From positions 1 through 28,489 of IMG/VR virus record IMGVR_UViG_3300003797_000014: DNA of 28,489 nucleotides. One strand, given 5' to 3'. Each line of letters opens with the position of its first letter. The first letter of the stretch is position 1. The notes below the pieces were generated by a model, which was given only the letters and a program-made list of their open reading frames with translations, did not search any database and had not been told where the DNA came from. Positions 1,392 through 27,762 of the stretch are shown piece by piece. A program made the translations under genes and the position numbers. The stretch is from a virus.

Positions 1392-3581
1392 ATGGCACAG
1401 TTTACACTTTCAAATAATGCTTTTATAGCATCTAATAAAAGTATTTTTGATGTAAATATGATTGCATCTGAAGATGGTAATGTTATTTCAAACACTAATC
1501 CTCTTCCAATTAATCTTGTAGCTGGTGGAACAGTTTCTATTTCTGGCCCAATTAGTGTTACTGTCGGCAATGTTGGAATAATTCACAGCAATGGTACGCC
1601 TATTACAAATGCTGCACCATTAGATGTTAAACCAATTGCAAATAGTTCTGTATATGTAAACGGTGGAAATATTAATATTGGGAATTATCCACTTACACAG
1701 AATGTTTCATTTAGTAATCAGTCTGTTACAGTTGCTAATGGTTATATTAGTGTCAATAATCTTCCTGGAACACAAAACGTTTCATTCTCTAATCAATCAG
1801 TTACTATTTCTTCAGGAACAGTAAGTGTAAATAATCTTCCAACTACTCAGAATGTTTCATTCTCTAATCAAACAATAACTGTTTCTGGTGGAACTTTAAA
1901 TGTTAGCAATTTCCCAGTTACACAAAATGTTTCATTCTCTAATCAAACAATAACTGTTTCTGGTGGAACTTTAAATGTTAGCAATTTTACAGTTACACAA
2001 AATGTATCTTTTGCTAATCAGTCAGTAACAGTTTCTGGAAATATTGCTGGAATTACAAATACTGTTACTGTATCAGTAAATAATTTTCCAACGACTCAAA
2101 ATGTAAATGTAACATTTCCAACCACGCAAAATGTAGCTTTCTCTAATCAATCCATTACAGTTTCTGGTGGAAATATTAATATTGGCAATTATCCAGTTAC
2201 ACAGAATGTTTCTTTTTCTAATCAATCAGTGACAATTTCTTCTGGTACTATATCAGTAAATAGTTTTCCAGCTACACAGAATGTTCAAGTTCTTTCAAAT
2301 ACTAGCAACTATGTATATACACAATTTGCTCCAACTTGGTCATTAGATGCACTTAGTAAAGTTAGAACTTCAACTACATTAAATCAAAATTGGTATGTTC
2401 CAGTTATTGATGATGACACAAATTTTAGATGGTCACAAACACTGGCGGGCACTGCTGCAAATAGTACTTTTGTTTCTAATACAAATGAAATTATTTTACA
2501 AAGTGGACTGAGTGCAATTGGATCTGTGGCAAGACAAACTTATGAAAAATTTAAGATTATTCCAGGAACATCACATACAGTTTATACTACAGTAAACTTT
2601 ACAGCTAATACTACAGAATCTGGTGTTACTCGCCGTACTGGAATGTTTAGTAATACAAATGGAATATTTTGGGAACAAGGTGGTGTTTCTGCAAATACAT
2701 TAGCCGTCGTTGTAAGAAGAAGACAAGCAAATGGTAATGTTATCGAAGATAGAACTTATGCAAATGCATTTAGTGTTGATAAATTAGATGGTACAGGACC
2801 ATCTGGATTTAATATTTTCAGTGCAGGATTAAACAAATATTATACTTTTTGGTTTGACTTTATTGGCGGTAGAACGGGACGTATTCGTTTTGGTATGGGT
2901 ACTCCACTTGGTCCACAAATTTGCCATGTTCAAAGTTATACTGGTACTGTTAATACTACATTTATTACAAATAATTCTTTGCCATTGCGCCGTGAAATCT
3001 TTAATTCATCTTCGCAAACATCAACACCAACATTTGGAATGTCTGGTATTTCTTTTCAATCAGAAGCTCCAGCAGTATTTAATCCTTCACCAACCACAGC
3101 ATATAATATTACACCATATACTCCAAATACTACATTGACACCAATTCTATCTATCGGTCTTCGTTCTGGAGAACCATATGTATTCAGTGATATATCTCCA
3201 GAACAACTTTTATTAGCTGATATTAATAACCAAGGAAAAAATAGTAGTCCCGGAACATTCTTATATGTACTTTTGTATAATGCAAATGTAAATGGTATTC
3301 CAGTATATTCTAATACAACTATTAGTGCAAATTGTGGTAGATCTTCTCAATATTGGGCCTGGCCAAATACAGCTACTGTATCAGGAGGTCTTCAAATATT
3401 CTCAGGCATTACTCAATCTGGAACTGGAGCATCTTCATTTCAAGCTTTGCCAACAACATATAATCTAGGATCAGATATAAATGGAAATCCGGCAACATTA
3501 ACTTTAGCAGTACAGCAAGTAGCTGCTGGAGGTTCAGCTGCAGGATTAGTAGCAACATGGAATATAATTGAACAATTATAA
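1392..3581 (+). CDS. Repeat-containing tail fibre or virion surface protein
   Basis: The 729-residue protein starts at ATG 1392, three bases after the previous stop, with GAGG at 1381-1384 as ribosome site. Residues from about 102 to 294 form a tandem array of roughly 25-residue units of the type TQNVSFSNQTITVSGGTLNV, typical of elongated beta-structured phage fibre shafts. The remaining C-terminal part (about 300-729) is not repetitive, rich in Asn, Thr, Ser and aromatic residues, and reads like beta-sandwich or head-binding domains. It has no predicted signal peptide or membrane segment, and no catalytic motif was recognised. Its place between virion-type genes and a late promoter after its stop fit a structural role. 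Fibre versus head decoration cannot be separated from sequence alone. Confidence 0.7.
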   Translation: MAQFTLSNNAFIASNKSIFDVNMIASEDGNVISNTNPLPINLVAGGTVSISGPISVTVGNVGIIHSNGTPITNAAPLDVKPIANSSVYVNGGNINIGNYPLTQNVSFSNQSVTVANGYISVNNLPGTQNVSFSNQSVTISSGTVSVNNLPTTQNVSFSNQTITVSGGTLNVSNFPVTQNVSFSNQTITVSGGTLNVSNFTVTQNVSFANQSVTVSGNIAGITNTVTVSVNNFPTTQNVNVTFPTTQNVAFSNQSITVSGGNINIGNYPVTQNVSFSNQSVTISSGTISVNSFPATQNVQVLSNTSNYVYTQFAPTWSLDALSKVRTSTTLNQNWYVPVIDDDTNFRWSQTLAGTAANSTFVSNTNEIILQSGLSAIGSVARQTYEKFKIIPGTSHTVYTTVNFTANTTESGVTRRTGMFSNTNGIFWEQGGVSANTLAVVVRRRQANGNVIEDRTYANAFSVDKLDGTGPSGFNIFSAGLNKYYTFWFDFIGGRTGRIRFGMGTPLGPQICHVQSYTGTVNTTFITNNSLPLRREIFNSSSQTSTPTFGMSGISFQSEAPAVFNPSPTTAYNITPYTPNTTLTPILSIGLRSGEPYVFSDISPEQLLLADINNQGKNSSPGTFLYVLLYNANVNGIPVYSNTTISANCGRSSQYWAWPNTATVSGGLQIFSGITQSGTGASSFQALPTTYNLGSDINGNPATLTLAVQQVAAGGSAAGLVATWNIIEQL
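1695..2273 (+). repeat. Coding tandem repeat array, unit about 75 bases
   Basis: About seven full or shortened copies of a 25-codon unit beginning TQNVSF lie within the fibre gene. Two neighbouring units, 1851-1912 and 1926-1987, are identical over 62 bases, so copy number has probably changed recently by slippage or recombination. One unit is expanded and one is shortened to about ten residues. Confidence 0.85.
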
Positions 3582-3584
3582 ATA
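3577..3584 (+). promoter_or_regulatory. T4-type late promoter TATAAATA
   Basis: An exact TATAAATA begins inside the last codons of the fibre gene and lies 28 bases before the next start at 3613. In T4 this octamer is recognised by the gp55 late sigma factor. It would drive the adenylyltransferase-like gene and those after it. Confidence 0.6.
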
Positions 3585-3612
3585 TAGTATGAATTAATCT
3601 TAGGAATATTCC

Positions 3613-4878
3613 ATGGGCAGCTTAGTAGATCGTATCAAAATAAAACTACAGTTATCTAAAGGTGGAAAGAAGTCCATGTTAGGTTCTGAGTTAGATGATA
3701 TTGAAATTAATCCATTTACTCGTGGAATTAAAGAAGAAGCTCAGCCTAAAGAAAAACATACTGTATTCACATTTGGTAGATTTAATCCTCCACATGCTGG
3801 TCATGAAAAATTAATCAATAAAGTAAAAGACGTTGCTGCTCAACATGGAGCAGATCATATGATTTTTACTTCTCATTCACATGATAGATCTAAAAATCCA
3901 CTTCCGCATGATGAGAAAGTTGGATTTATGAAGAAGATTTTTCCTAATACAAATATTCATGATAGTTCAGAACATCCAATAAAGACTGCTTTAGATGCTG
4001 TTAAGCATTTAAGTAGAACTGGTACAACACATGCTACATTTGTTGTTGGTCAAGATCGTGTAGATGAATTCCATAATCTACTTCACAAATATAATAAGCA
4101 CCCATCTGATCCTGATTTTGATCCTAATAAGCATTATCATATTCCACATCTTAATGTAATCTCAGCTGGACAAAGAGATCCTGATGCTGAAGACGTTACA
4201 GGCGCATCTGCTTCAAAGCAACGTGAGCATGCACAAAATAATAATTTTAAAGGCTTCCATGGTAATATGCCAGCAGGAACTTCACATGAAGATTCACGAG
4301 CTTTATTCCATGCTGTCCGTCATCATATGGGTATTCATGAAGCTTTTGTTCATTATGCACCAGCTACAACAAAAGTTAAAAGCGGTCTTTCGCCTGAAGC
4401 AGAACAACGTACTAAAGACTTTGCTGCTAAAGCTAAAGCAGATATTCAAGCTGCCCGCCGTGAAGATCAACATGGACGTAGAACTGCTAAGCCAGTTAAA
4501 TATGATGTAAAGCCAACTAAAACGCCAGTTGCTCCAAAGTATATGCCAGCAAGTATGGCACAAAATCCATATGAAGAGCGTCAGTTTATAATTCGTTATA
4601 AGCGTGATAACATGGCTCCAGGTAAAAAGGCTTTTGATATTGGCTGTGATAAAGATCTTAATGATAAAGATGTTGATAATCAATTACCGCGTCGTCAAGG
4701 AATTAAACGCTTTAAAACGTTTGTTGAAGATGGGTATGATCCAGGTTCATCTATTACTATGCAAGGATCACAACAAGATCTTGGACCAAATGTACCTACA
4801 GTGAGAAAATTAAAAGGCCCTGTGTCATTAATGTTAAACCGTAGTAATGGTAAACCAGAGAAGGTAGGAAATGCCTAA
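3613..4878 (+). CDS. Nucleotidyltransferase (NMN adenylyltransferase/cytidylyltransferase-like) with extra C-terminal domain
   Basis: The 421-residue protein starts at ATG 3613 after the ribosome site TAGGA at 3601-3605. Residues about 48-210 hold the HxGH nucleotidylyltransferase fold: GRFNPPHAGH at 55-64 is the signature, VVGQDRVDEF at 144-153 matches the adenine-binding region of NadM/NadR-type enzymes, and SASKQRE at 199-205 takes the place of the family's ISSTxxR motif. The reaction would be transfer of a nucleotide from an NTP with release of pyrophosphate; NMN is the usual substrate in this group, but this is inferred. The C-terminal 180 residues are basic, Pro- and Lys-rich and unrecognised. 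The gene overlaps the next one by 8 bases and lies among virion genes, so it may be a late or packaged protein rather than part of an NAD salvage operon. Confidence 0.75.
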   Translation: MGSLVDRIKIKLQLSKGGKKSMLGSELDDIEINPFTRGIKEEAQPKEKHTVFTFGRFNPPHAGHEKLINKVKDVAAQHGADHMIFTSHSHDRSKNPLPHDEKVGFMKKIFPNTNIHDSSEHPIKTALDAVKHLSRTGTTHATFVVGQDRVDEFHNLLHKYNKHPSDPDFDPNKHYHIPHLNVISAGQRDPDAEDVTGASASKQREHAQNNNFKGFHGNMPAGTSHEDSRALFHAVRHHMGIHEAFVHYAPATTKVKSGLSPEAEQRTKDFAAKAKADIQAARREDQHGRRTAKPVKYDVKPTKTPVAPKYMPASMAQNPYEERQFIIRYKRDNMAPGKKAFDIGCDKDLNDKDVDNQLPRRQGIKRFKTFVEDGYDPGSSITMQGSQQDLGPNVPTVRKLKGPVSLMLNRSNGKPEKVGNA

Positions 4879-6127
4879 ACCCCTTAACGAGTTAGGAATG
4901 TTTAATGAACCATCCCTGGGAACATCTGATGAAAAACCTTCTGCTTTTGACTCAAGTCAAATCGCTTCTGCTGTTCCTTCTATCCAAATTCGACGTAAAT
5001 CAAAAAAAGCAATAAAAGACTATAAAGTGGAGAACCCGATGGACGAAGAAAATAAACTGCTTACTTTCAAAGAGTTACAAGAAAAGCGTGGACTCTGGGA
5101 TAACATTCATGCAAAGCGAGCGCGCATTAAGCATGGATCTGGAGAGCATATGCGTAAGCCGGGTTCCAAGGGTGCTCCTACTGCTGCAAACTTTAAGGCA
5201 GCTCAAGAAGAAGTTGATGCTGAAGGTGAAATGGCAGCAAATCAACTTTCAACTGCTGAACGTGCTGCCAAAACTCTTAAAGGTAAAATGAGTAAGAATA
5301 CTCAATTGCCTGCATGGCTTCAAGCTAAAATTACCAAGGGTTCTGGTATGCTTGATGCTGCTTCTGATTATATGGCTAGTAAAGTTAAAGAAGAAATAGT
5401 ATCTGAAGGTCCATTCTCTCAGGGGTATTTAAAAGCTACACAAAAGATGATAGATCAATCTAAGGCTGGTGGTGTTACATCAACTATTAGAGATAAAGAT
5501 GAAAAGGGTACCTATACTCAAGTCACTAAAAATGGTGTACCCGGTCCTAAGGTATATGAAAGCATTCGTATGGGTCACAGAGGAATCAAACCTGTTGAAA
5601 AAGATCCAGGTAAGAAAGTAGCATTCAAGAAAGTCAATAGTGCTGATGCTTTCAAGGCTGCTCTTGCTAAAGCCCGTGCTAAGAAGATGGAAGAATCTGC
5701 CGAACAGATTGATGAACTATCTCCTCAATTCTATGCAGCTGCTGATCGTGGTGATAGTACAAAGCGCAATAAGCCAAAGCCAGCAAAGTTAAAGTTCTAT
5801 AGTAAGCCAGCAATGCCTATCAATAATAAACCAGCTCCTGCAATGGAAGAAACACTTACTGAACGCGGTGCAGATTCAAAGGGGTACTTCAGATCTACTG
5901 AAGCTGGTGCAGGTCTGACTGCTAAAGGTGCTGCTCACTTCCGTAGACAAAATCCAGGCTCAAAGCTTTCGACAGCAGTAACTGAAAAGAATCCTAAGGG
6001 TAAGAGAGCTGCTCGTCGTAGATCTTTCTGTGCTAGAATGAGTGGAATGCCAGGTCCTATGAAGGATGAAAAGGGTAGACCAACTCGTAAGGCCATGTCA
6101 CTTCGCCGTTGGAGATGCAGAACTTGA
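4871..6127 (+). CDS. Basic phage protein with two conserved modules (DUF5872-like and DUF6321-like)
   Basis: The 418-residue protein begins at ATG 4871 inside the end of the previous gene, with AAGG at 4861-4864 as ribosome site, so the two are probably translationally coupled. Residues 75-104 contain a Trp/His/Lys/Arg-rich block including GSGEHMRKPGSKGAPT, which I recognise from phage DUF5872-like proteins. The last 70 residues, including NPGSKLSTAVTEKNPKGKRA and RRSFCARMSGM and ending in LRRWRC, match the very basic DUF6321-like module found in large phages. The middle is Lys/Ala-rich with AEQIDELSP near residue 283. Function is unknown; the charge suggests nucleic acid binding or an internal head role. 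Family names are from memory and should be treated as tentative. Confidence 0.7.
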   Translation: MPKPLNELGMFNEPSLGTSDEKPSAFDSSQIASAVPSIQIRRKSKKAIKDYKVENPMDEENKLLTFKELQEKRGLWDNIHAKRARIKHGSGEHMRKPGSKGAPTAANFKAAQEEVDAEGEMAANQLSTAERAAKTLKGKMSKNTQLPAWLQAKITKGSGMLDAASDYMASKVKEEIVSEGPFSQGYLKATQKMIDQSKAGGVTSTIRDKDEKGTYTQVTKNGVPGPKVYESIRMGHRGIKPVEKDPGKKVAFKKVNSADAFKAALAKARAKKMEESAEQIDELSPQFYAAADRGDSTKRNKPKPAKLKFYSKPAMPINNKPAPAMEETLTERGADSKGYFRSTEAGAGLTAKGAAHFRRQNPGSKLSTAVTEKNPKGKRAARRRSFCARMSGMPGPMKDEKGRPTRKAMSLRRWRCRT

Positions 6128-6558
6128 GTAATTTAATCGATGAAATGAAAGTCTTTGAAGCAAATGCATTTTGCTTTTATTTGAATCTTCACTACTTTCA
6201 TTGGAATGTAGAAGGTCAAGACTTTTATCAATATCATAAGTTCTTTCAAGAGCTATATGAAGAAGTGCATGACTCTGTTGATAATATTGCAGAGCATATC
6301 CGCGCATTAGGTGCTTATGCTCCAGGTACAATAAAGCGTTTCATGGATTTATCTGAGTTAGAAGAAACAGAAAAGGTTCTTGATATCAAAGAAATGCTTA
6401 ATGCGCTTATCAGTAATAATGATATAGTTATGGCATCAATTAAACGAGCTTTAAAAGAAGCATCTACTGCAAATGAACGCGGTGTAGAAAACTTTTTACA
6501 AGATCGTTTAGACAAGCATATGAAACATCAATGGATGTTAAAATCATCTAATAAATAA
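6124..6558 (+). CDS. Dps/ferritin-like iron-binding protein
   Basis: A compact helical protein of about 144 residues with the Dps signature FHWNVEG. Counting from TTG 6124, the ferroxidase ligands are His26, His38, Asp53 and Glu57; their spacing of 12, 15 and 4 equals that of His31, His43, Asp58 and Glu62 in Listeria Dps, while the Asp47 position is Gln. Dps proteins form 12-subunit shells that oxidise and store iron and protect DNA. I prefer TTG 6124 because GGAG at 6111-6114 sits nine bases upstream and the TTGA overlaps the previous stop, a common coupling arrangement. ATG 6115 is the alternative, but GGAG would touch it. The highly basic DNA-binding tail seen in some Dps proteins is not evident. 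Its place among virion genes is unusual for a stress protein. Confidence 0.8.
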   Translation: MSNLIDEMKVFEANAFCFYLNLHYFHWNVEGQDFYQYHKFFQELYEEVHDSVDNIAEHIRALGAYAPGTIKRFMDLSELEETEKVLDIKEMLNALISNNDIVMASIKRALKEASTANERGVENFLQDRLDKHMKHQWMLKSSNK

Positions 6559-7742: not shown

Positions 7743-7909
7743 TAGTAACTCTATCTCAAAAGGCCATGATTCTAGATTCTTCTAACACTGTGGTTAAACA
7801 ACTGACTAATGGATCGACTAATAAAGTCATTATGGACCTAAGGCCGATCTTCTTTGTTAGAGATTCACAATCTATTATAAATAGTACTAATAACAAAGGA
7901 GATAACTAA
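7739..7909 (+). CDS. Small hypothetical protein, 56 residues
   Basis: An uninterrupted 56-codon frame begins at ATG 7739, which overlaps the previous stop as ATGA, and ends at TAA 7907-7909, which overlaps the next ATG as TAATG. Such perfect stitching to both neighbours supports a real gene. The product begins MIVTLSQKAMILDSSNT and contains LRPIFFVRDSQ; no family, signal peptide or membrane segment is recognised. The ribosome site is weak (GAAGAG about 15 bases upstream), so it may depend on coupled translation from the AT-hook gene. Confidence 0.5.
   Translation: MIVTLSQKAMILDSSNTVVKQLTNGSTNKVIMDLRPIFFVRDSQSIINSTNNKGDN
7876..7883 (+). promoter_or_regulatory. T4-type late promoter TATAAATA
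   Basis: An exact TATAAATA lies 25 bases before ATG 7909, inside the end of the small upstream gene. A strong ribosome site (AAAGGAGAT) follows. It probably drives the structural gene at 7909 and the fibre cluster after it. Confidence 0.65.
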
Positions 7910-8553
7910 TGCCTTTATGGGGAAAATTAAATCAACAAAATAATGCTCCAAAGTCGACCACATTTGTTGTTGACCGTGTAGCTGGTAAGCGTCTGACTGG
8001 TACAGGTAATGTAGTAACCTCTTCAGCAGCTCGTCCTAATGATCTAAGCACTTTCAGTAATACAACTGTTGGTGCTTTTGAAGCATTAGAAGCAGTTGGA
8101 ACATTTGGTGTTAATACTGCAGTTGTTCAATCAAGATATACTGCAACGGGTTCAAAGGGTATTTCTCCTGGTTGGATAAATGCTACTATTGGAACTGGCC
8201 CAGTAACATCGCTGACAGTTGTAACACCATCTGGATTATCTTATAGTAATACAGATAAGTTTGTTCTCAGCGGTGGAACATCAAATGCTACAGTTGCTAT
8301 TACTACAAATACAACTGGCGGTATTGTTGCGACATCTGTAGTAAATGGTGGTGCAGGGTTTGCCAATGTTTCAGTAGTAACTTTAGCCATTGCTAATTCT
8401 ACTGGTGGTGCTTCTGCTGGTTCCGGCGGTGATACAGCTTCAAATTATAAGCTGGCCCTTGGTGGTCGTGCAGGCCGTGTATTGTATGAAACTTTAGTGT
8501 TCATCAAGAATGGTGGCAAGGGAGTTACTGGCGGTACACAAAATCTTCCTTAA
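7909..8553 (+). CDS. Virion structural protein, Gly/Ser/Thr-rich
   Basis: The 214-residue protein starts at ATG 7909 after AAAGGAGAT, one of the best ribosome sites in the window, and with an exact late promoter just upstream, so it should be abundant late in infection. The start MPLWGKLNQQNNAPKST is familiar from small structural proteins of T4-like phages of marine and soil bacteria. The body is rich in Gly, Thr, Val and Ala with alternating beta-like pattern and the stretch VVNGGAGFANVSVVTL. It ends with FIKNGGKGVTGGTQNLP. The exact place in the particle is unknown; no enzymatic motif is seen. Confidence 0.65.
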   Translation: MPLWGKLNQQNNAPKSTTFVVDRVAGKRLTGTGNVVTSSAARPNDLSTFSNTTVGAFEALEAVGTFGVNTAVVQSRYTATGSKGISPGWINATIGTGPVTSLTVVTPSGLSYSNTDKFVLSGGTSNATVAITTNTTGGIVATSVVNGGAGFANVSVVTLAIANSTGGASAGSGGDTASNYKLALGGRAGRVLYETLVFIKNGGKGVTGGTQNLP

Positions 8554-8570
8554 TAGTATCGGATTGATCC

Positions 8571-9557
8571 ATGCCAATAGTTGATATTTTAATAAATGAT
8601 ATTCCACGAACTACAAGTATATCAAATACTGATATTATAGTTGTTACTAATAATATTGATACACAACCAACAACTAATACTATCGAGTTTGGTGTATTTG
8701 CAAATGCTGTTGCTCATTATGCTGGTGCTGCAGCTGGGGCTTTAACTGCTAACGTTACTGTTACTGGAACAACTATAGGTGCAGTTAGTTCTGGTTATGT
8801 GTTTCCAGCGGGCATGACATTTCAGCAATTTGTAGAAGCTATTTCAATTTATATAGCTCCTCCAATTCCACCAACCTATACTGCACCTACACTATCTCTT
8901 GGATCAAGTCCATCGCCAGGCAATATTGAAGTTGGTACAACACAAAATATTGCTCTTACTGGAACATATACTCAACACGATGGTGGTGCGGCTGGAGCAT
9001 ATGTGCTCTATAAAAATTCTGCACAACTTTCTACATCAACTTCATATACTGATAGTTCAGTGCAAATTACAGAAACACCTATTACATATAATGCACACAT
9101 TGCATACGCACAAGGTCCAGTAAAAACTGATACCCAAGGCAATGCAAATGCTACTGGTCAGATTCAAGCCGGTACAGCAACATCTGGTAATATTACATTT
9201 ACTGGATCACGTAAAGCATTTTATGGAACATCGACGAATCCAGTTGTTCCTACAACAAATGCTGAGATTCGTGCTTTATCATCTACATTTAATGTTGGAG
9301 AAGGTGGAAATCCAAACTTTACAATTACAGTTCCAATTGGTGCGGCTGCAGTAATATTTGCATATCCTGCAACAGAACGAGATGTAACTTCTGTTAAATA
9401 TGTAGAATATGCTTATAATGAAATTAAAGCTTCTTTTGACAAAACACTTGTAAATGTATCAGGTGCTAATGGGTATAGTCCAATATCATATAAGGTATAT
9501 ACATTCATTCCAGTTGAGCCATATTCACAAGTTGTAAATTATCAAGTGTTCATCTAA
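8571..9557 (+). CDS. Tail-fibre or baseplate-attached structural protein
   Basis: The 328-residue protein starts at ATG 8571. Its N-terminus, DILINDIPRTTSISNTDIIV, has the same layout as the N-terminus of the 900-residue fibre at 15097 (KISSLPEATVLSNNDIFLV): a short strand, Pro, and a hydrophobic strand after an Asn-Asp or Asn-Thr-Asp. This pattern is common at the particle-attachment end of phage fibres. After a Pro-rich linker at about residues 104-112 there are beta-rich segments with an Ig-like look, then a C-terminal domain ending in VNYQVFI. Its TAA overlaps the next ATG as TAATG, so it is coupled to the propeller fibre. The function in host binding is inferred. Confidence 0.6.
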   Translation: MPIVDILINDIPRTTSISNTDIIVVTNNIDTQPTTNTIEFGVFANAVAHYAGAAAGALTANVTVTGTTIGAVSSGYVFPAGMTFQQFVEAISIYIAPPIPPTYTAPTLSLGSSPSPGNIEVGTTQNIALTGTYTQHDGGAAGAYVLYKNSAQLSTSTSYTDSSVQITETPITYNAHIAYAQGPVKTDTQGNANATGQIQAGTATSGNITFTGSRKAFYGTSTNPVVPTTNAEIRALSSTFNVGEGGNPNFTITVPIGAAAVIFAYPATERDVTSVKYVEYAYNEIKASFDKTLVNVSGANGYSPISYKVYTFIPVEPYSQVVNYQVFI

Positions 9558-11599
9558 TGACTCAACCTACATTATTACCAATAGTATTTCAAAGACAAAT
9601 AGCATCTCCTCTTGATGTAGATACCGTATTTTCTAATACATTTAATCGTAATGCATACTTAACTAGTCCTAGAAGATATGCAGGACAAATTGTATCTGAT
9701 CTAGAAGCTAATGCAATATTTGTTCTTGATAGTACTAGAACTACTTGGTTATCAGCGGGATCTGGTGGAAGTGGTTCTAGTACTCTACATGGATTAACTG
9801 ATGTTAATGTAACTGAAGGTGTAGGCATCGATGGCCAATATCTGAAATATGATAATGCAACCGGGAAATGGGTAGCAAATACTGTATCTGCAACTGTAAA
9901 CACGGGTAATATTACATTTAATAATACTACTATTTCCACTAGTTTGACTGGTGCAAATATAAATCTTTTGAATTCTACAGGAAATACCAATATAATTGGA
10001 ACTTCTCCAGATTATCCATATGCAATAATGACTTCAATAACAGTCAATTCATCTGGATTATTTGTTGCTGTAGGATACGATAATAATACTTATTATCCAC
10101 TATATGCTACATCAACTGATGGAATCACGTGGACTAATCCTGCATTAATGAATGGCAGTACTTCATATGCACTATTGACTTCAGTAACAGTAAACTCAGC
10201 CGGTTTGTTCGTTGCAATTGGATACGATAATAATACTTATCCATTATATGCCACTTCGTCTGATGGAACCGCATGGACTACTCCTGCATTAATGAATGAT
10301 AGTACTTCATATGCACATATGCAATCAATAACAGTAAACTCAGCTGGTCTGTTCGTTGCAGTTGGTTTTAATAATAATAATTATCCATTATATGCCACTT
10401 CAGCAGATGGAACTGCATGGACTACTCCTGCATTAATGAATGGCAGTACTTCATATGCGCAAATGAATTCAGTAACAGTCAATTCATCTGGATTATTTAT
10501 TGCTGTTGGCATTGGTAATAATGATTATCCATTATATGCCACTTCGTCTGATGGTAGTAATTGGACTACTCCTGCAGTAATGAATGGTAGCACTTCTCCT
10601 GTACTATTGACTTCAGTAACAGTCAATTCATCTGGATTATTTGTTGCTGTCGGACTTGATGGTAATAGTGGTTATCCATTATATGCCACTTCGTCTGATG
10701 GTAGTAATTGGACTACTCCTGCAGTAATGAATGGTAGCACTTCTATTGGATTTATGACTTCAGTAACAGTCAATTCATCTGGATTATTTATTGCTGTCGG
10801 ATTTGGCCAAGTTGGTCCAGTATACGCTAAATCTTCTGATGGTAGTAATTGGACTACACCAGCATTAATCAATAGCACTACTGGTCCTATAGCTCTAACT
10901 TCAGTAACAGTCAATTCATCTGGATTATTTGTTGCAATTGGTGATGAGTTTTCCAATTTTTATCTAGGACATACTTCAACAACAGATGGTAGTACATGGT
11001 CTGCATTGACTTTTAATGTTACTCCTAGACTTCCTGCACAAGTTAATATAACAGCAGGTAATAATACTTGGCAGTTTACTAAATCTGGTAATATAAGTTT
11101 ACCTCTTAATACATCAAGTATTAATTATCCAAATGGATATCCATATGGAGGAGTATCTACTCTTTCAGCTTTAACCGATGTTAATGTAGCTGAAAGTGCA
11201 GGCATCGATGGCCAATATCTAAAATATGATAACGCAACTAGTAAATGGATAGCTAATACAGTATTAGCAACTCATCCCATTGCATTTTTCTTCACTACTA
11301 CACCCGGCGCAAATGAAACTTTATTAATTTATAATACAGTATCAAATATAGATATTCAAACAAACTTTAATGGATTTCAATGTTCAGTAGGAACTCCACC
11401 ATCTGGAACATTTGTATTAAGTATATATAAAAATACAACACAAATAGGAACTATTACTATATTCTCTAATGGATATTCGCAAGGAAGCACTAGTGATTCT
11501 ACAGTATTTGTTCCAGGCGATACACTTTTAGCTAATGTTAGTATATCAGATGCAGCAATACAAAATGTAGGTATTACTTTCAAAGGAATTACAGCATGA
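9557..11599 (+). CDS. Modular tail fibre with seven-repeat beta-propeller
   Basis: The 680-residue protein starts at ATG 9557 in a TAATG junction. The first 65 residues (MTQPTLLPIVFQRQ onward) are a close relative of the N-terminus of the fibre at 14083 and probably anchor it to the particle. A module with DVNVTEGVGIDGQYLKYDNA follows, then seven repeats of about 48 residues each holding TVNSSGLFVAVG and a sialidase-like Asp-box pattern such as SSDGTAWTT, then a second copy of the IDGQYLKYDNA module and a C-terminal beta domain. Seven such repeats are the usual number for a closed seven-bladed propeller. A role in binding a host surface glycan or protein is inferred. No sialidase arginine triad was recognised, so an enzyme is unlikely. 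Confidence 0.75.
   Translation: MTQPTLLPIVFQRQIASPLDVDTVFSNTFNRNAYLTSPRRYAGQIVSDLEANAIFVLDSTRTTWLSAGSGGSGSSTLHGLTDVNVTEGVGIDGQYLKYDNATGKWVANTVSATVNTGNITFNNTTISTSLTGANINLLNSTGNTNIIGTSPDYPYAIMTSITVNSSGLFVAVGYDNNTYYPLYATSTDGITWTNPALMNGSTSYALLTSVTVNSAGLFVAIGYDNNTYPLYATSSDGTAWTTPALMNDSTSYAHMQSITVNSAGLFVAVGFNNNNYPLYATSADGTAWTTPALMNGSTSYAQMNSVTVNSSGLFIAVGIGNNDYPLYATSSDGSNWTTPAVMNGSTSPVLLTSVTVNSSGLFVAVGLDGNSGYPLYATSSDGSNWTTPAVMNGSTSIGFMTSVTVNSSGLFIAVGFGQVGPVYAKSSDGSNWTTPALINSTTGPIALTSVTVNSSGLFVAIGDEFSNFYLGHTSTTDGSTWSALTFNVTPRLPAQVNITAGNNTWQFTKSGNISLPLNTSSINYPNGYPYGGVSTLSALTDVNVAESAGIDGQYLKYDNATSKWIANTVLATHPIAFFFTTTPGANETLLIYNTVSNIDIQTNFNGFQCSVGTPPSGTFVLSIYKNTTQIGTITIFSNGYSQGSTSDSTVFVPGDTLLANVSISDAAIQNVGITFKGITA
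9791..9894 (+). repeat. Direct repeat flanking the propeller, left copy
   Basis: A 104-base segment encoding the IDGQYLKYDNA module aligns without gaps to 11168-11271. The longest identical run I found is 21 bases (9823-9843). The two copies bracket the propeller repeats. Confidence 0.8.
10028..11010 (+). repeat. Seven propeller-blade coding repeats, unit about 144 bases
   Basis: Seven copies of a unit of about 144 bases, the start-to-start distances being 147 for the first and 144 for the second. Each encodes a TVNS-GLFVA-G strand pair, and nearly all carry an Asp-box-like DG-x-x-W turn. Blades 4 to 7 share long identical DNA around the sequence encoding VNSSGLF, which suggests recent duplication or gene conversion. 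Confidence 0.85.
11168..11271 (+). repeat. Direct repeat flanking the propeller, right copy
   Basis: The right-hand partner of 9791-9894, offset by 1377 bases (459 codons) so the reading frame is kept. It encodes DVNVAESAGIDGQYLKYDNA. The pair could recombine and delete or exchange the propeller without a frameshift. Confidence 0.8.
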
Positions 11600-11634
11600 T
11601 TATTTTTAAAGCACAGGTTATGGGAGATTAATAC

Positions 11635-12633
11635 ATGTCTACAATTTCTGCGCTTCCATTCTTTGGCGGTGAGCTTTCGACCTTTATTGCTTCAGATGGA
11701 AACACCTACGAAACAACTGATAGTACATATTTCAATTCATCATATTCGCGTTGTGCCATTGGGTGTTTGGGAGGCACGACCTTTGCCCGCTCGCCTAGCT
11801 GGCCTTCAGCCGCTGACTTCTGGATGCACGATGTGCTCTATTCGGGCAATTACAACGGTGGCGGAAGCCCTATTTTCATATTCTATAATGGAGCAACGGT
11901 CGTTGCGCAAATTGTAATGTCAGGAAGCAACCCAAGTTGCACCGCCTATACTCTCCAAAGCGGCTCCCTGACCTCTGTTGGTACGTTTCATATTGAACTT
12001 CAACTTCTGAACACCCTTGACATTCACATTGTAGCTGGCGGGAGTGGGAGTTTTACGGTCTATGTCGCCGGAGCGCAGCTTTTCACTTCAACGGGCCTTA
12101 ATCATTCTGGATGGAGCGGCATCACAAGTCTGGTTTTCAGCGGCTGGAACGGTCAATATGGTAATGCGGTTGATACCAACCACTCACAAGTAATTTGCGA
12201 CACGACCTCAACCATTGGCCGTATTTTAGTTACAGATAGATTTGATACTGAAAGTGCAACAAATAATGGATGGACTGGTGTAGGTACAACTAAAGTAGGC
12301 GATATGTCAGCCATTCCTCTCAATGATGCAAATTATATGTATGCCGCTTCAGCTGATCTTACTGATACATTTTATCAAAGTACACTTAACCTTAGTTCTT
12401 ATAATGTACTTGCTCGTGGTGTAGCTGCAAGAGCTCGTGTTCAAGGGGCCGGGCCAGCAAACATTAAACTTTGTCTTTGTTTGGGTGGAACAAATTATGT
12501 AAGTACTGCAATTTCGCTTTCAGCCGGATATGATTCATATTTTAATTCGTGGACCGTGGATCCCGCCACATCATCTGCTTGGACATCATCTGCAGCTGCT
12601 GCTATTGAACTTGGAGTACAAAGCTCGACATGA
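11635..12633 (+). CDS. Lectin-like tail adhesin, apparently chimeric
   Basis: The 332-residue protein starts at ATG 11635 after GGGAG at 11623-11627. The first 190 residues form a beta-rich domain with Gly and aromatic residues that looks like a concanavalin/LamG-type jelly roll, as in phage surface adhesins. The second part (about 200-332), with [19 protein letters not shown] and a C-terminus ending near [10 protein letters not shown], resembles a module common in phage tail proteins of alphaproteobacteria. The DNA for the first part is far richer in G and C (39 of 60 bases at 11761-11820) than that for the second part (23 of 60 at 12241-12300), so the N-terminal domain was probably acquired from another source. 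The stop overlaps the next ATG as ATGA. Fold assignments are by appearance. Confidence 0.6.
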
Positions 12634-13694
12634 CCGGTCTTCTTCTTAATCGCGTTGAAGTTTCAACAGCCACAACTGGTACTGGAACAGTTACCCTTGG
12701 TTCAGCAGTATCACCATATCAAAGCTGGTCAGCTGCAGGAGCAGTAGTAGGACAATCTTATAGCTATCTTATTCAAGATGGTACAGCTTGGGAAATTGGA
12801 GTTGGAGTTTATGATGGAACTACAATAACAAGACCTGGTCCAGGAACTGATCAATATTTTCAAAGCTCTACTGGTTCTTTGCTTTCTTTAACAGGTTCAG
12901 CAACAATTGCTTGTGCAGCTAATAAAGATAATTTTACCGGTGGCGGTGGATATACAGCTACATCTACTAATGTACCACCTCAAATACGCGGTTACTCCTA
13001 TGTTAGCGGATCCACAAATAGTTTTGATGTACCTTTCCCAACTGGAACTGTTGCAGGAGATTTTGCAATTCTAAATGGAGCGGGTGGGTATGGTCCATCG
13101 GGGCCTCCATCTGGTTGGACCTCACTGAAAAGTTCCAGTGCTTCTGGAATTCAGGGCGCAACTTTCAGCAAGATACTTACCTCGGATGATATTACAGCAG
13201 GGCATGTAACAGTTATTTTTAATAATTCTTATAATGCCATCTGTCAAATGGTTACGCTTCAGGGTACTGCAACTATTCGCAACACACAAGGAAATGCTGA
13301 TGGCAGCACAACACTTACAAGTGCAAGCAGCGTGCAGGTTAATGATATAGGAATTCATTTTGCCACAGTTCGCGGAGGAAATATTACTTCTGTTACACCT
13401 GGAACAGTTCAACAGACTAATATATTTTCTGATATCAAGGCGGCAACCTATACCTCTGTGGTTGGCTCGGCAGGTGCTCAATCTGTTGTTTATACTGTGT
13501 CAGGCGACTATTATATATGTTCGGTTTTTGTAGATAATGTTGCCGGTGCATATACAATTACAGGTGAGACTGAAACTATTTCTTCTGGTGCACCAACAAT
13601 TAGCGGCCAGGTAGGTGATCGTTATTTTGATACAAATACATCTCCATTTACTTCTTACATATATTATAATGGAACTTGGAATAGATTCAATTGA
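12630..13694 (+). CDS. Tail-fibre/adhesin protein with C-terminal [10 protein letters not shown] tag
   Basis: The 354-residue protein begins in an ATGA overlap with the previous stop. Residues 1-100, with an [20 protein letters not shown] stretch and [16 protein letters not shown], match a module common in phage tail proteins. The middle (about 115-305), with [10 protein letters not shown], has the look of a receptor-binding beta sandwich and resembles the body of the protein at 14083. The C-terminus, [17 protein letters not shown] then TWNRFN, recurs nearly unchanged at the end of the 14083 protein and may be a trimerisation or chaperone-like tip. It is probably co-expressed with the adhesin at 11635 and may work with it. 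Confidence 0.65.
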
Positions 13695-13703
13695 TTTTTA
13701 TAT

Positions 13704-13711
13704 TATAAATA
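13704..13711 (+). promoter_or_regulatory. T4-type late promoter TATAAATA
   Basis: An exact TATAAATA ten bases after the stop of the adhesin gene. It lies 29 bases before a tiny frame at 13740 and 68 bases before the gene at 13779. The same arrangement, a WNRFN-coding end then a late box then AAGCTGGATAA, recurs at 15045-15097. Confidence 0.6.
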
Positions 13712-13739
13712 TGAAATAATTTTAAAAGCTGGATAATCA

Positions 13740-13778
13740 ATGATAAAAGCTAATGCATATTTTATGATGGACAAATAA
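13740..13778 (+). other. Twelve-codon open frame at a duplicated gene junction
   Basis: ATG 13740 follows AAGCTGGATAATCA, almost the same leader that precedes the fibre start at 15097, but the frame stops after 12 codons and directly abuts ATG 13779. It may be a vestige of a duplicated gene start or a leader peptide coupling translation into the next gene. I do not call it a gene. Confidence 0.4.
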
Positions 13779-14048
13779 ATGCCAGGATTTGGACCAGTTG
13801 CATCAGGACCAGTAGGAACAGTTTCTTCTCAAAATCCTTTATCTACTGATAATCAGCAGGTAACTTCAATTACTGGTTATACCCAAATTGGAGCTCCTGA
13901 TGCTACACAACAGGTAACTTCAATTACTAGTTATACCCAAATTGGAGCTCCTGATGCTACACAACAGATTATGTCCATTACTGGTTATACAATGATTCAG
14001 CTGCCTTTATCTCCAACAAATAGAAGAAGACAGATTGTCAATACATAA
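13779..14048 (+). CDS. Small repeat protein, probably structural
   Basis: The 89-residue protein starts at ATG 13779, directly after a 12-codon frame, with no strong ribosome site of its own. MPGFGPVASGPVGTVSSQNP resembles the N-terminus of short Gly/Pro-rich virion proteins in T4-like phages. The middle consists of two nearly identical 18-residue units, QVTSITGYTQIGAPDATQ, plus a degraded third, and the end is basic (NRRRQIVNT). No known domain was recognised. Its place between fibre genes and the beta-strand-like repeat suggest a small fibre accessory or connector. Confidence 0.5.
   Translation: MPGFGPVASGPVGTVSSQNPLSTDNQQVTSITGYTQIGAPDATQQVTSITSYTQIGAPDATQQIMSITGYTMIQLPLSPTNRRRQIVNT
13857..13964 (+). 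repeat. Two tandem 54-base coding repeats
   Basis: 13857-13910 and 13911-13964 are the same 54 bases except for a Gly/Ser codon difference. A partial third copy follows from 13965. The unit encodes 18 residues. Confidence 0.85.
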
Positions 14049-14082
14049 TAAATAAAATATATTAATTATTGGATAAGTATTC

Positions 14083-15060
14083 ATGACTCAACCTACATTA
14101 TTTCCATTAGTATTTCAAAGACAGTTAGCACAACCAGTCGATGTAGATCAAGTTTTTGCAAATACCTTTGTTCGCAATTCATACTTGTCTCATGCAAGAA
14201 GATATCCTGGTCAAATTGTATCTGACTTAGAAGCTAATGCAGCATTTATTCTTGATAGTACTGGAACAACCTGGATACCAATTGGAATTCCTACTGTTAC
14301 ACCTACACCACAGCAAGTATATGCACCACAAGTTGTGCAATCTATTATGGGTGGAACTACTAATAGCTCTCAATTAGTTGGAACTTTTCCTAATCCATTG
14401 ACACCAGGTAATTATATTATTGCTCTTTGGTCTTCATATACAAATTCATATAATGCAAATGGAAATGGATTTACATCTATTTTAACTCAAGGTGAAGCCG
14501 CTGATAATCTTATAGTTAATTATAAAAAAATTCAGTCAGGTGATAGTCAAACTCAGCAGTGCGGTACTGTTGCTGCATCATCTGGTATATTTGCAATGTT
14601 TGAAGTGTCAGGATTTAGTACTCCTCCTTCAATAGATGTTTCTAAATTAGTACAAATAAATTCAACTACTAATCACACAGAATCTACTACGGCAACAACA
14701 TCTTATGATCTTGCATTAGTACTTTCATATTCTACATCTACAGGTACAGGATTAATTCCAGATCCTACTTGGACAGTAGATCAAACAATAGTAAATGCTT
14801 CAGGACGTGATGGTTGGGCTGGGCATAAAGTATATCCAACTATAGGATCAACAATCAGTGAAACTACAACATTTACTTCTTCTGTAACAAATGAAGTTAT
14901 TCTTATTGGAATAAAATCTGCACCAACTCCACAAGGTACATTATTTGGAACAGGTTCTCCAACACTGCCTGGTACTCAAGGGTTATTATATTTTGATACA
15001 AGCACAACAACATTTACTTCTTATGTGTATTATAATGGCTCTTGGAACAGATTCAATTAA
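14083..15060 (+). CDS. Tail fibre, paralogous N-terminus to the propeller fibre
   Basis: The 325-residue protein starts at ATG 14083 after TTGGATAAG. Its first 65 residues (MTQPTLFPLVFQRQ, RRYPGQIVSDLEANA, FILDSTGTTW) match those of the fibre at 9557, so both likely attach to the same site on the particle. The body (about 85-280) has a different beta-sandwich-type domain, similar in pattern to the middle of the protein at 12630. The C-terminus carries the same tag, YFDTSTTTFTSYVYYNG then SWNRFN. It therefore looks like a mosaic of an anchor from one fibre and a tip from another. It is followed three bases later by a late promoter. Confidence 0.7.
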   Translation: MTQPTLFPLVFQRQLAQPVDVDQVFANTFVRNSYLSHARRYPGQIVSDLEANAAFILDSTGTTWIPIGIPTVTPTPQQVYAPQVVQSIMGGTTNSSQLVGTFPNPLTPGNYIIALWSSYTNSYNANGNGFTSILTQGEAADNLIVNYKKIQSGDSQTQQCGTVAASSGIFAMFEVSGFSTPPSIDVSKLVQINSTTNHTESTTATTSYDLALVLSYSTSTGTGLIPDPTWTVDQTIVNASGRDGWAGHKVYPTIGSTISETTTFTSSVTNEVILIGIKSAPTPQGTLFGTGSPTLPGTQGLLYFDTSTTTFTSYVYYNGSWNRFN

Positions 15061-15062
15061 TT

Positions 15063-15070
15063 TATAAATA
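15063..15070 (+). promoter_or_regulatory. T4-type late promoter TATAAATA
   Basis: An exact TATAAATA just after the stop of the 14083 gene and 26 bases before ATG 15097. It probably drives the 900-residue fibre gene. Confidence 0.65.
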
Positions 15071-15096
15071 TTTAACAACTTTCAAGCTGGATAACC

Positions 15097-17799
15097 ATGA
15101 CAACACATCCTGATATAAAAATTAGTTCATTACCTGAAGCTACAGTTTTAAGTAATAATGATATTTTTTTAGTTATACGTAATCCTAATACGTATCCAAC
15201 TTCAAATATTGTTACTGTGAATACAATTATTCAAACTGTAAATGCCAGTATAACTCATTCTACACCTAAAGCTAATACTACATCTTTAGGTGTAATTAAA
15301 GTTGGATCCGGTCTTAGCATAGCTAATGATGGTACTCTTTCAAGTAATTCAGCTAAAAATATTCAACATATTACAATGGTTGCAAATACACCATTTGTTC
15401 CAAATATGTCAGTTGATGTTTATTATATTACATCTGATGGAACTGGAGTCAATAATAGTATAACCATTCCAGCTTGGAACTATGTATCTAATACACATCT
15501 TAATGGATATGCTGACCCAGTTAATGCGGGCCACACTACATTGTTTGTCTATGAACATCAAGCAAACAATGAATATATTGAAATTACAACACAAGATGAA
15601 AGCCCATTTTATGATTTAAGTCAAGGTGCTGGATATTATCCATCATCTAAAATTCAAAGAGTAGAATTATATTCAGTAGGTTCCGGATTTAAGGTAGTTA
15701 ATAATTATGATGAATGGGGTTGCTATTCTGGTGAAACAGATGGTGATTATAATTTAATTCCTCAAGGTGGCCAAACTGTACAGTTTGGAACATATGATTC
15801 AGATCATCCAGATGACGGCGATGGTATCAGTGTAGCTTTAGTTGCTGGAGATCAAAACAAAGATAATACTAACGGTGGAACTATTAATATTACTGCTGGA
15901 AGTGGATATGCTAATGTAAATTCACATGGTGGATCTATTGATATTCAAGCAGGAGCTTCTGGAAATAGTATTGCTGGTACTGTTTATATAAATGCTGGTG
16001 CAACATACAGTGGCACTCCTGGAGAAGTCATAATCAATGGCGGTTTAGGTGTTGGTCCAAATGGTGGTAATGTTTCTATTTTAGGTGGAAATAGTGTTAA
16101 CTCAAATGGTGGATCTGTAATACTTAGACCCGGTTCTGGTGATAATTTGCCCGGTAATATTATCTTAGAAACTTTACCAACAAATGATCCAGGAATTACT
16201 AATGCACTTTGGAATTCTGATAATACTGTTGTTCTGAGTGGATATGCTGGATCTGCAGGCGGAAAAAGAGTAGCATCTCTTACTACTAATTCTGCTTCAT
16301 CAATCGAAGTCGGTATGAATTATGATGTTTATAATATTACATCAGATGGATCTGGTCAACCACAAGTTATAGTTATTCCAACATATAGTTCAAGCGGTAA
16401 TACTTATAATGCTGGTGATAAAACAATATTCATTATGCAAAATAAAGTTAATGCAAATGATGAAGTACAAATTCAATTTGCTGATACTAATATATCTCTT
16501 ACTACTTTAAGTGGATTTTTTCCATTTTCAAATATAAATCAAATTTCCTTTACTCAAAATGGTCAAGGCATTGTTTTGGTTAATGGATTTAATGAATGGC
16601 TATATTCACCAGAGCTCGCAGATAGCATAAATTCATCAACACAGCCTGACATTTATATGATACCGCAGATGTCTCCACCTGGAGTACTTTCATATATGCC
16701 ATCAAATGTTATTGATGCAAATGGAAATGCTCTTTCTGCTGCAGCCACATGGGTCATTTCAGCAGGTCAAGATAATAGTACCAATTCTGCATCAAGTAAT
16801 ACCGGTGGTGGTGAAATTTATATCATAGGAGGATACGCTTATGGTTATGGTGCAGGTGGTTCTATCAATTTAGAAGCAGGACAATCTGATCAAAATAATG
16901 GTGGATCAGTTTATCTAAATGCAGGTAATGGTCCAAATGCTGTTGGTGGAGAAATTCAATTAGCTGCTGGAGCAGGCAGTTCAGGCGGTGGTGGTATTAC
17001 TTTATCCTCTGGTGTATCTGCTGATTATCATGGCGGCGGCATCACTTTAAACTCTGGTAATGGTGGCCGCGGCGGCGGTGATATTAATATTATTGTAGGA
17101 AATAGAACAAGTTCTGATACTTTACAATTAGATGTTGGCCAAATCAATGTATTTGCTGGGCCTAATTCTAATGGAATTGGTGGGCATATTAATATTTTTG
17201 CTGGTAATACTACAGGAGATTATGCAGCTGGTACATTAACACTTAGTGGTGGTCAAAGTACTGCAGTAGGTGGAGATGTAATTATTCAAGGTGGGCCAGG
17301 AGTATCTGGAGGAAGTAATGGACACGTCTATATAAACAATCTTCCAACTGTTGATCCAAATCAGACTAATGCTTTATGGAATAATAATAATAATCTCGTA
17401 TTAAGTGGATATGCAGATGGCGTTTATTCTGCACCATTTAATTCTCCAGATTCAACTGTTATTGATACTGGCAATACTCCTTATCCTGGTGTCCGCTTCA
17501 GATTTGTTGCAGGTGTTGTTCAAGTTGCTGGACCAGATAGTTCAACATTAAGTGTATTTGGATGGACTGGCTCTCTTACTTATGCTAATGGTGTTATTAC
17601 TGGATTTGGTGGATCTGGTCAATCACCTGCTCAAAATGCCTACTTAAGTTTAAATCCTAGTAATCCATTTGTTTCAGCTGGAGACACAGTTGTAATAAAC
17701 ATAACTGATTATCAATACGGTTATATGTATCGCGTTACCGCAATGGGATCTCCAACTAACAGTAATCATGGCACAATGTCTGTAGAAAAACTCTTATAA
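15097..17799 (+). CDS. Large glycine-rich tail fibre with internal duplication
   Basis: The 900-residue protein starts at ATG 15097 after AAGCTGGATAACC. The N-terminus has the fibre anchor pattern KISSLPEATVLSNNDIFLV. The body is built twice: a beta domain containing YDVYNITSDGSG or VDVYYITSDGTG, then glycine-rich repeats of the type GGSVYLNAGNG, then a closing motif with LPT-DP and TNALWN and VLSGYA (near 16172-16250 and 17341-17420). The glycine-rich parts suggest a beta-helix or stacked polyglycine tip as in some phage adhesins. The LPT-DP...LW motif is common at the end of phage fibre modules. The last 140 residues form another beta domain. Host receptor binding is inferred from this architecture and the neighbouring fibre genes. 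Confidence 0.7.
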   Translation: MTTHPDIKISSLPEATVLSNNDIFLVIRNPNTYPTSNIVTVNTIIQTVNASITHSTPKANTTSLGVIKVGSGLSIANDGTLSSNSAKNIQHITMVANTPFVPNMSVDVYYITSDGTGVNNSITIPAWNYVSNTHLNGYADPVNAGHTTLFVYEHQANNEYIEITTQDESPFYDLSQGAGYYPSSKIQRVELYSVGSGFKVVNNYDEWGCYSGETDGDYNLIPQGGQTVQFGTYDSDHPDDGDGISVALVAGDQNKDNTNGGTINITAGSGYANVNSHGGSIDIQAGASGNSIAGTVYINAGATYSGTPGEVIINGGLGVGPNGGNVSILGGNSVNSNGGSVILRPGSGDNLPGNIILETLPTNDPGITNALWNSDNTVVLSGYAGSAGGKRVASLTTNSASSIEVGMNYDVYNITSDGSGQPQVIVIPTYSSSGNTYNAGDKTIFIMQNKVNANDEVQIQFADTNISLTTLSGFFPFSNINQISFTQNGQGIVLVNGFNEWLYSPELADSINSSTQPDIYMIPQMSPPGVLSYMPSNVIDANGNALSAAATWVISAGQDNSTNSASSNTGGGEIYIIGGYAYGYGAGGSINLEAGQSDQNNGGSVYLNAGNGPNAVGGEIQLAAGAGSSGGGGITLSSGVSADYHGGGITLNSGNGGRGGGDINIIVGNRTSSDTLQLDVGQINVFAGPNSNGIGGHINIFAGNTTGDYAAGTLTLSGGQSTAVGGDVIIQGGPGVSGGSNGHVYINNLPTVDPNQTNALWNNNNNLVLSGYADGVYSAPFNSPDSTVIDTGNTPYPGVRFRFVAGVVQVAGPDSSTLSVFGWTGSLTYANGVITGFGGSGQSPAQNAYLSLNPSNPFVSAGDTVVINITDYQYGYMYRVTAMGSPTNSNHGTMSVEKLL

Positions 17800-17810
17800 A
17801 GGAAAATAAA

Positions 17811-18005
17811 ATGTCAACTACTCCAGAACTACACGTATTTCAGACTGTTCCTAATAAAATTATTATTCGTCCAAGATATGAAGGCGTAATTCAAATACTC
17901 AATGCTGCAAACACTGTAGTATATCAAGGTGTATGTCCGCAAGGTCCACAAGATATTCCACCATCACAGCATAATACATCATTTACAATTACTGTTATTT
18001 CTTAA
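17811..18005 (+). CDS. Small hypothetical virion-region protein
   Basis: The 64-residue protein starts at ATG 17811 after AAAGGAAAA, only 11 bases from the fibre stop, so it is co-transcribed with it. The sequence starts MSTTPELHVFQTVPNKIIIR and has a compact beta-like pattern with one Cys, ending in FTITVIS. No family was recognised. Its small size and position just after a large fibre gene would suit a fibre cap, chaperone or decoration, but this is only inferred from position. Confidence 0.55.
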   Translation: MSTTPELHVFQTVPNKIIIRPRYEGVIQILNAANTVVYQGVCPQGPQDIPPSQHNTSFTITVIS

Positions 18006-26382: not shown

Positions 26383-27762
26383 TTACAGAAGATTTTGTAC
26401 TTGAACTCTGCGGTAGTATACGTTCGAGCCCTGCAGAAGAGCACCTGGTGTATAACCCTGTGAGTTGTTTCCGAAGGCGAATGGATTTGCAACGACGCCG
26501 TAACGTGTCTTGAATCCAATCTTTGGCTGGAAGGTGTCTTGACCAACAGCACGTACCATTTGCAGAGGTACGTATGGGCAATAGAATAGACCGGCGTCGA
26601 ATGCCGATGCACCCTTATAACCTACTGTGATATAGTTACCAGCAGCATATGGGTCTACATACACTCTCATGCGTCCGTTAAGAACACCAGCGAATGTATT
26701 ACCTGTGTCATCAACTTGCAGATTATTGCTGTTGAGTGCTGGAGCATAATCCAGAACACCTGCCATTTGAAGAGCAGAAGCAACATCCGAAGAACAGATG
26801 ATCAGGTTACCCTTACCACGACGTGTATTCTTTGCAATGTAATTTGCTTCACGTTCAATCTGGAACATCAGACCCTTGAACTTCTCAACTGACCAACGTC
26901 CGTTTGAGTCTACGTCAAGGTCGAATACACCAGCTGTGGTTGTTTCAATAGCACCAGCAACGGCTGTGAGGTTTACTGTACGAACGATTTCACGATTGAT
27001 TTCCGAAAGGATTTCAGCCGAAAGAATTGTCGACAGTTCGGTCTCAGCGTCCAGACCATGAATTGCCTTCAGGTCTTGTGCCAGTTCCATTGAATACTCG
27101 GCCTTCAGAGCACGCGATTGTGCCTGAACGGTTACCTTGTCGATCGAGAACGACATTTGACGGAAGTCTTGGTTATATGCAGTTGAACCCAGAGCTTCAG
27201 CATACGATGTTGGCATACCACCAGCAAAGTTATACTGTTGCGAGTTACCGGAAACAACGTTATTACCAGTCTTCAGTGTACCGTCGTACAGACCGCCGAG
27301 ATTGTTGTTAGCATAACCAACAAGCGAAGTATTACCAGCAAGAGCAGCATTTGCACCACCTGGGAATGTCGACTGTCCGGTATTTGCTTCATTGTAGAAT
27401 GCGTTGGCACCCGACTGCGAGTCGTACTGAGGACGCAGAGCAAAGATCAGACCTGTTGGTCCGGTCATTGGCTGAACGCCGCAGATGTCATAAGCGATCA
27501 GGTTTGGCATCGAACGACGAACCAGCGAAATAAGTACTGGATCGTAGTTATTAACACCACCGATACCTGTTGCTGGAGCAGCACCAGAATACTCGAGAAG
27601 AGCTTGTTGACCACCAAAACCACCGGTCTGAGACATGTCTCTTTCAGTGTTTTCCAGCAGCTGAGCAATTGTAGCACGCTTGTGGGCGTCCTTAATTGGC
27701 TCTAAATCAGGATGCTCAATTAATGGCTTCCACTTTTTTTGAATTTCTTCGTTAAGAAACAT
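26383..27762 (-). CDS. 23: Major capsid protein, T4 gp23-like
   Basis: The 459-residue protein starts at ATG 27762 on the minus strand after GGGAGA. It has the hallmarks of T4 gp23: the N-terminal prosequence with WKPLIEHPDLEPIKD and TIAQLLENTE, then YDPVLISLVRRSMPNLIAYD, ICGVQPMTGPTGLIFALRP, and the C-terminal VGYKGASAFDAG, FYCPYVPLQMVRA and GFKTRYGVVANPFA. In T4 the gp21 protease removes the prosequence after a Leu/Ile-x-Glu site; LLE at 55-57 is the likely site here. It forms the hexamers of the head. Codon use is more G+C-rich than the neighbouring plus-strand genes, as expected for a highly expressed gene. A double late promoter lies upstream and a strong terminator downstream. Confidence 0.97.
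   Translation of the reverse strand: MFLNEEIQKKWKPLIEHPDLEPIKDAHKRATIAQLLENTERDMSQTGGFGGQQALLEYSGAAPATGIGGVNNYDPVLISLVRRSMPNLIAYDICGVQPMTGPTGLIFALRPQYDSQSGANAFYNEANTGQSTFPGGANAALAGNTSLVGYANNNLGGLYDGTLKTGNNVVSGNSQQYNFAGGMPTSYAEALGSTAYNQDFRQMSFSIDKVTVQAQSRALKAEYSMELAQDLKAIHGLDAETELSTILSAEILSEINREIVRTVNLTAVAGAIETTTAGVFDLDVDSNGRWSVEKFKGLMFQIEREANYIAKNTRRGKGNLIICSSDVASALQMAGVLDYAPALNSNNLQVDDTGNTFAGVLNGRMRVYVDPYAAGNYITVGYKGASAFDAGLFYCPYVPLQMVRAVGQDTFQPKIGFKTRYGVVANPFAFGNNSQGYTPGALLQGSNVYYRRVQVQNLL

Follow-up and report, generated by a model that had tools for sequence, protein, structure and literature searches.

In T-even (T4-like) phages, parts of the tail-fibre adhesins are swapped by recombination at conserved short motifs. 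That exchange has been demonstrated between phages, whereas none is seen at the locus described here. The modular evolution of receptor-binding proteins is well documented (PMC10684548). The receptor-binding protein Gp45 of Staphylococcus phage phi11 is built as a stem, a platform and a tower, with trimeric elements flanking its propellers on both sides (PMC4901313). As in the present protein, the propeller sits in the middle of the chain, with a stem on its N-terminal side and a tower on its C-terminal side; it has five blades rather than seven, the folds of stem and tower are different, and the likeness is drawn from the published description, with the trimer presumed here. PhiKZ gp131C, named in the same paper, is a myovirus protein of the baseplate periphery with a seven-bladed propeller and is likewise compared by description, but its propeller is C-terminal, unlike the one treated here.

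The PLL-family lectins (PLL, PHL, PLL2-5; PMC6943638) share the seven-bladed fold predicted here (TM ~0.75 by target length), but they are bacterial lectins, not phage fibres, and sequence homology to them is not detected (phmmer E 0.15; no profile match at 0.01). Highly repetitive, freshly amplified propellers have near-identical blades of the Asp-box type, much like the blades here with their Asp-box-like turns, and recent blade duplication has been described for propellers generally (PMC9218822); viruses are counted in that work and phages and tails go unmentioned, whereas the propellers considered here belong to phage virion proteins. The tail fibre of Agrobacterium phage 7-7-1 (9rkv; PMC12796354) has a homologous C-terminal knob, with the detected homology covering the knob only (fibre residues ~483-579).

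The tail-fibre gene and its setting

The whole stretch of DNA that was analysed, called the window, is a virus record of 28,489 bases (IMGVR_UViG_3300003797_000014). The phage is T4-like by its gp23 major capsid gene (26383-27762; Pfam Gp23 E 4e-149; PHROG major head protein), whose nearest named relatives are ~61-65% identical, and the window also carries thyX and ribonucleotide reductase genes. We infer a freshwater habitat. Within a row of fibre-like ORFs (7909-18005) stands an ORF (Table 1) whose product is likely to be a modular tail fibre, or adhesin, of this T4-like phage, composed as proposed below.

Two neighbouring ORFs (11635-12633 and 12630-13694) are spanned by a stretch of raised G+C (11700-13500; 41-48% against 31-38% on either side) and are possibly acquired fibre genes. 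ORFs 12630-13694 and 14083-15060 have a near-identical C-terminal stretch, TSYxYYNGxWNRFN, which is a further fibre part in common, and the small ORF 13779-14048 contains three 54-nt tandem repeats of 18 residues each, QQVTSITGYTQIGAPDAT-like. Elsewhere in the window, a Ferritin/Dps-like protein (6115-6558; Pfam Ferritin E 4e-24) is encoded amid virion-type genes, and a virion protein (1392-3581; phrog_1645) has a series of NVSFSNQSVTVSGG-type repeats.

Table 1. Features of the tail-fibre-like gene and of the related N-terminal segment, in window coordinates
Feature	Position	Strand	Basis and remarks
Tail-fibre-like ORF	9557..11599	+	680 aa; holds modules, propeller and knob
N-terminal segment, residues 1-68, presumed virion anchor	9557..9760	+	match to start of ORF 14083-15060; low-confidence structure
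LTDV...DNATGKW module copy 1, residues 76-113	9782..9895	+	repeat comparison; 38 aa
Beta-rich linker ahead of propeller	9896..10021	+	translation; low pLDDT
Seven predicted propeller blades	10022..11032	+	AlphaFold2, Pfam, Foldseek
Blades 1-4	10022-10168, 10169-10312, 10313-10456, 10457-10600	+	
Blades 5-7	10601-10747, 10748-10888, 10889-11032	+	
Linker behind propeller, with NNTWQFTKSGNISLP	11033..11158	+	translation
Module copy 2, residues 535-572	11159..11272	+	repeat comparison; 38 aa
C-terminal knob, residues 573-680, C1q/TNF-like jelly roll	11273..11596	+	profile, Foldseek, tblastn
Second copy of N-terminal segment, other C-terminal half attached	14083..14286	+	start of ORF 14083-15060

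The bracketing modules

An earlier note on this DNA had drawn attention to two gapless 104-base copies of a module on either side of seven repeats. Comparison confirms a direct, not inverted, pair (9791-9894 and 11168-11271) with 88 of 104 nucleotides identical (84.6%), extending to 95 of 115 (83%) over the full ungapped match (9781-9895 and 11158-11272); 102 nt of the copies match at 86%. A blastn search of the window with the first copy finds the second at E=5e-31, and when the ORF outside the propeller is codon-shuffled 200 times, no 104-nt match exceeds 57 identities, against the 88 observed. The string IDGQYLKYDNA is unchanged between the copies, about a third of the synonymous sites differ (pS 0.35, dS ~0.48) and the longest exact run is 21 bp. 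The copies lie 1377 nt apart, or 459 codons, as had been pointed out, but divisibility by three is automatic because both share the frame of one ORF; the spacing adds nothing and was dropped as evidence for a cassette.

Scanning viral contigs with the module yields 51 loci, and more than one copy is present in 31 fetched ORFs (the window's own included), with 17 copies in L020 and 14 in L019. Judged from these matches, the LTDV...DNATGKW module recurs widely in phage fibres, and a module pair in one fibre ORF is common because many of the fetched ORFs are multi-copy. None of the fetched module-bearing fibre ORFs have common flanks around unlike middles, and near-identical pairs are collinear.

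The seven-bladed propeller

The seven repeats between the modules are units of 47-49 residues (~48 aa) whose starts are 141-147 nt apart. The earlier note had credited nearly all of them with Asp-box-like turns; the turn is present in all seven, as [ST]-x-D-G-x-x-W, one residue short of the canonical Asp-box SxDxGxTW. The repeats score above the Pfam cut-offs for BNR_2 (E 1.9e-10, 41 bits against 31.4) and Tachylectin (E 1.3e-7, 32.1 bits against 29.8). In line with the propeller that had been proposed, AlphaFold2, run on the ORF with 22 other sequences as alignment, predicts one confidently, with pLDDT mostly 93-98 for residues ~161-440 and, from there to residue 480, mostly 67-95. Most of the top PDB matches found by Foldseek are the seven-bladed lectins PLL, PHL and CV39L (TM 0.72-0.78 by target length), whereas searching PDB sequences with a propeller profile gave no match at 0.01, the fold search alone matching. 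A seven-bladed propeller in this tail-fibre ORF is strongly supported, the toroid of seven blades being predicted by the model and matched by seven-bladed PDB entries, and this propeller is probably a carbohydrate-binding domain.

The longest perfect direct repeat in the gene, of 73 bp, lies in blades 4 and 5 (10525-10597 and 10672-10744, 147 apart), which differ by a dS of only ~0.09, and it reads as a recent duplication or gene conversion. The GC content of the propeller equals that of its flanks. The linkers on both sides of the propeller have no match in the collection of phages.

The knob and the N-terminal segment

The C-terminal knob matches the tail fibre of Agrobacterium phage 7-7-1 both by profile (E 9.2e-5) and by Foldseek (E 6.7e-7), and tblastn adds matches to tail proteins of Caulobacter and Erythrobacter phages. 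Its structure model, built on an alignment of the window and viral-contig loci only, has pLDDT mostly 63-87. In gp124 of Caulobacter phages one module is joined straight to the knob and the propeller is absent, which is the architecture expected after propeller loss. However, because these relatives are remote (~30% identity), they show only that such an architecture exists.

The N-terminal segment recurs, 72% identical in amino acids and 79% in nucleotides, at the beginning of ORF 14083-15060, the rest of which differs. Such a segment common to two ORFs with unlike remainders hints at fibre mosaicism within the genome. The AlphaFold2 monomer has low confidence in this segment and in both modules, so that their anchoring and shaft roles are putative.

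Distribution of the propeller family

Used as query against viral contigs, the blade brings up 54 loci, and the propeller family comprises ~50 phage loci. Seven is the commonest blade count, found in 22 of 45 distinct ORFs (contig ends cut some short), and N replaces the D of the turn in about half of the family. The propellers occur as stand-alone ORFs, as C-terminal ends of longer ORFs or as internal domains. Among the ~50 loci, LTDV...DNATGKW modules surround the propeller in this phage only. Repeats in the flanks are clear in L108 only (49% over 41 aa), with weak 29% matches in L084 and L104, and the idea that the family is generally bracketed by flank repeats was dropped.

Applied to 84,980 bacterial and archaeal genomes, the blade scan finds 2 loci, so that the family is, at the sensitivity of the scan, close to phage-specific. 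A contig of an Armatimonadetes-labelled MAG (L136) has a family propeller (3578-5463) beside fibre-like ORFs and is probably a phage contig binned with a bacterium. In Vibrio phage vB_VmeM-32 (L013), more than ten near-identical propeller-type repeats make up most of an ORF (2386-4470) annotated as similar to outer capsid protein.

At two loci (L068 and L082) the propeller lies inside a large virion structural protein whose flanks are ~430 aa apart, whereas in Cronobacter phage GAP32 the matching flanks are only ~23 residues apart; the propeller therefore acts as an insert over evolution, with the module absent. As far as sequence comparison goes, this domain mosaicism is real, and the exchange of such domains among phages is supported, as is the tail-fibre or adhesin setting.

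Origin and mobility of the propeller

The chances are about even that the module pair is the scar of one past insertion of the propeller between or beside modules, and not an active switch. Fibre genes often contain several modules, and the propeller cleanly interrupts an unrelated virion protein, as the L068/L082 and GAP32 proteins illustrate. Against such an insertion, the propeller does not differ in GC from its flanks, and the event itself is unseen because no close propeller-less relative was found at the locus. A past insertion concerns the history of the protein rather than its function and is compatible with a modular fibre.

It is unlikely that the modules of this phage act as exchange points for a phage-specific, self-amplifying propeller family moving as an in-frame cassette between unrelated virion proteins, and so give rise to propeller-less or swapped virions at low frequency in the source population. 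The earlier note had read the pair as a ready host-range switch, in which the module copies recombine and a living population loses or exchanges the entire propeller in one step. This is very unlikely. The copies are indeed direct, in frame and alike over most of their length, a propeller-less module-plus-knob form is found in the distant Caulobacter phages, and the N-terminal segment precedes an unlike C-terminal half in ORF 14083. However, the gene has one and the same sequence in each of the three contigs that span it, including what lies between the modules, and no exchanged form was found; contigs 3300006105 and 3300025782 contain the whole gene, 100% identical to the window (not necessarily as independent samples), and contig 3300006104 of the same phage ends at window position 7957, ahead of the gene. 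Scans with the N-terminal segment, the module and the knob recovered no propeller-less relative of the gene; in IMG/VR the N-segment and knob scans gave the full form only, and searches for same-locus relatives through the N-terminal segment, ORF 3613-4878 and gp23 relatives (62-77% identity) returned nothing beyond other contigs of this phage and contigs lacking a P0001 match. The assembled contigs contain no excised or swapped form; low-level excision is possible, since such contigs hide minor forms.

The module copies have also diverged too far to be favoured partners next to the blades, with exact runs no longer than 21 bp, against many longer perfect in-frame repeats of up to 73 bp within the propeller; should homologous recombination or slippage act here, gain or loss of blades would be expected more readily than removal of the entire propeller. 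The repeat is often multi-copy in fibre genes, no other family propeller is flanked by this module, and propellers move elsewhere without it. None of the ORFs inspected in the 28-kb fragment stood out as an invertase or reverse transcriptase. A recombination switch at the module pair stands as unproven. That the repeats form a linear or disordered stretch instead of a propeller is hardly credible: modelling may be over-confident for highly similar repeats, but seven is the commonest unit count across the family, both Pfam matches exceed their cut-offs and the Foldseek match to solved seven-bladed lectins spans the whole ring.

Proposed architecture and implications

The preferred reading is a modular tail fibre, and it takes as established the repeats, the predicted propeller fold, the knob homology and the family distribution. 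The N-terminal 68 residues would probably attach the fibre to the virion, followed by a short module that may serve as shaft or connector, the seven-bladed propeller with its Asp-box-like turns and a probable role in carbohydrate binding, a second putative shaft module and, at the tip, the C1q/TNF-like knob, which is probably trimeric. The module would be found on both sides of the propeller because it is a reusable unit of the fibre shaft, in a layout resembling that of phi11 Gp45. In the family at large, blades would multiply by tandem duplication, and propellers would have entered many different virion proteins as in-frame insertions in the course of evolution.

The gene is a clear example of a fibre made from interchangeable parts, namely shaft repeats, a lectin-like propeller and a C1q-like knob. 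The propeller family, nearly missing from cellular genomes, turns up cleanly inserted in virion proteins that are not related to one another and continues to gain blades by duplication, which makes it a useful resource for tracing the spread of host-recognition domains across phages.
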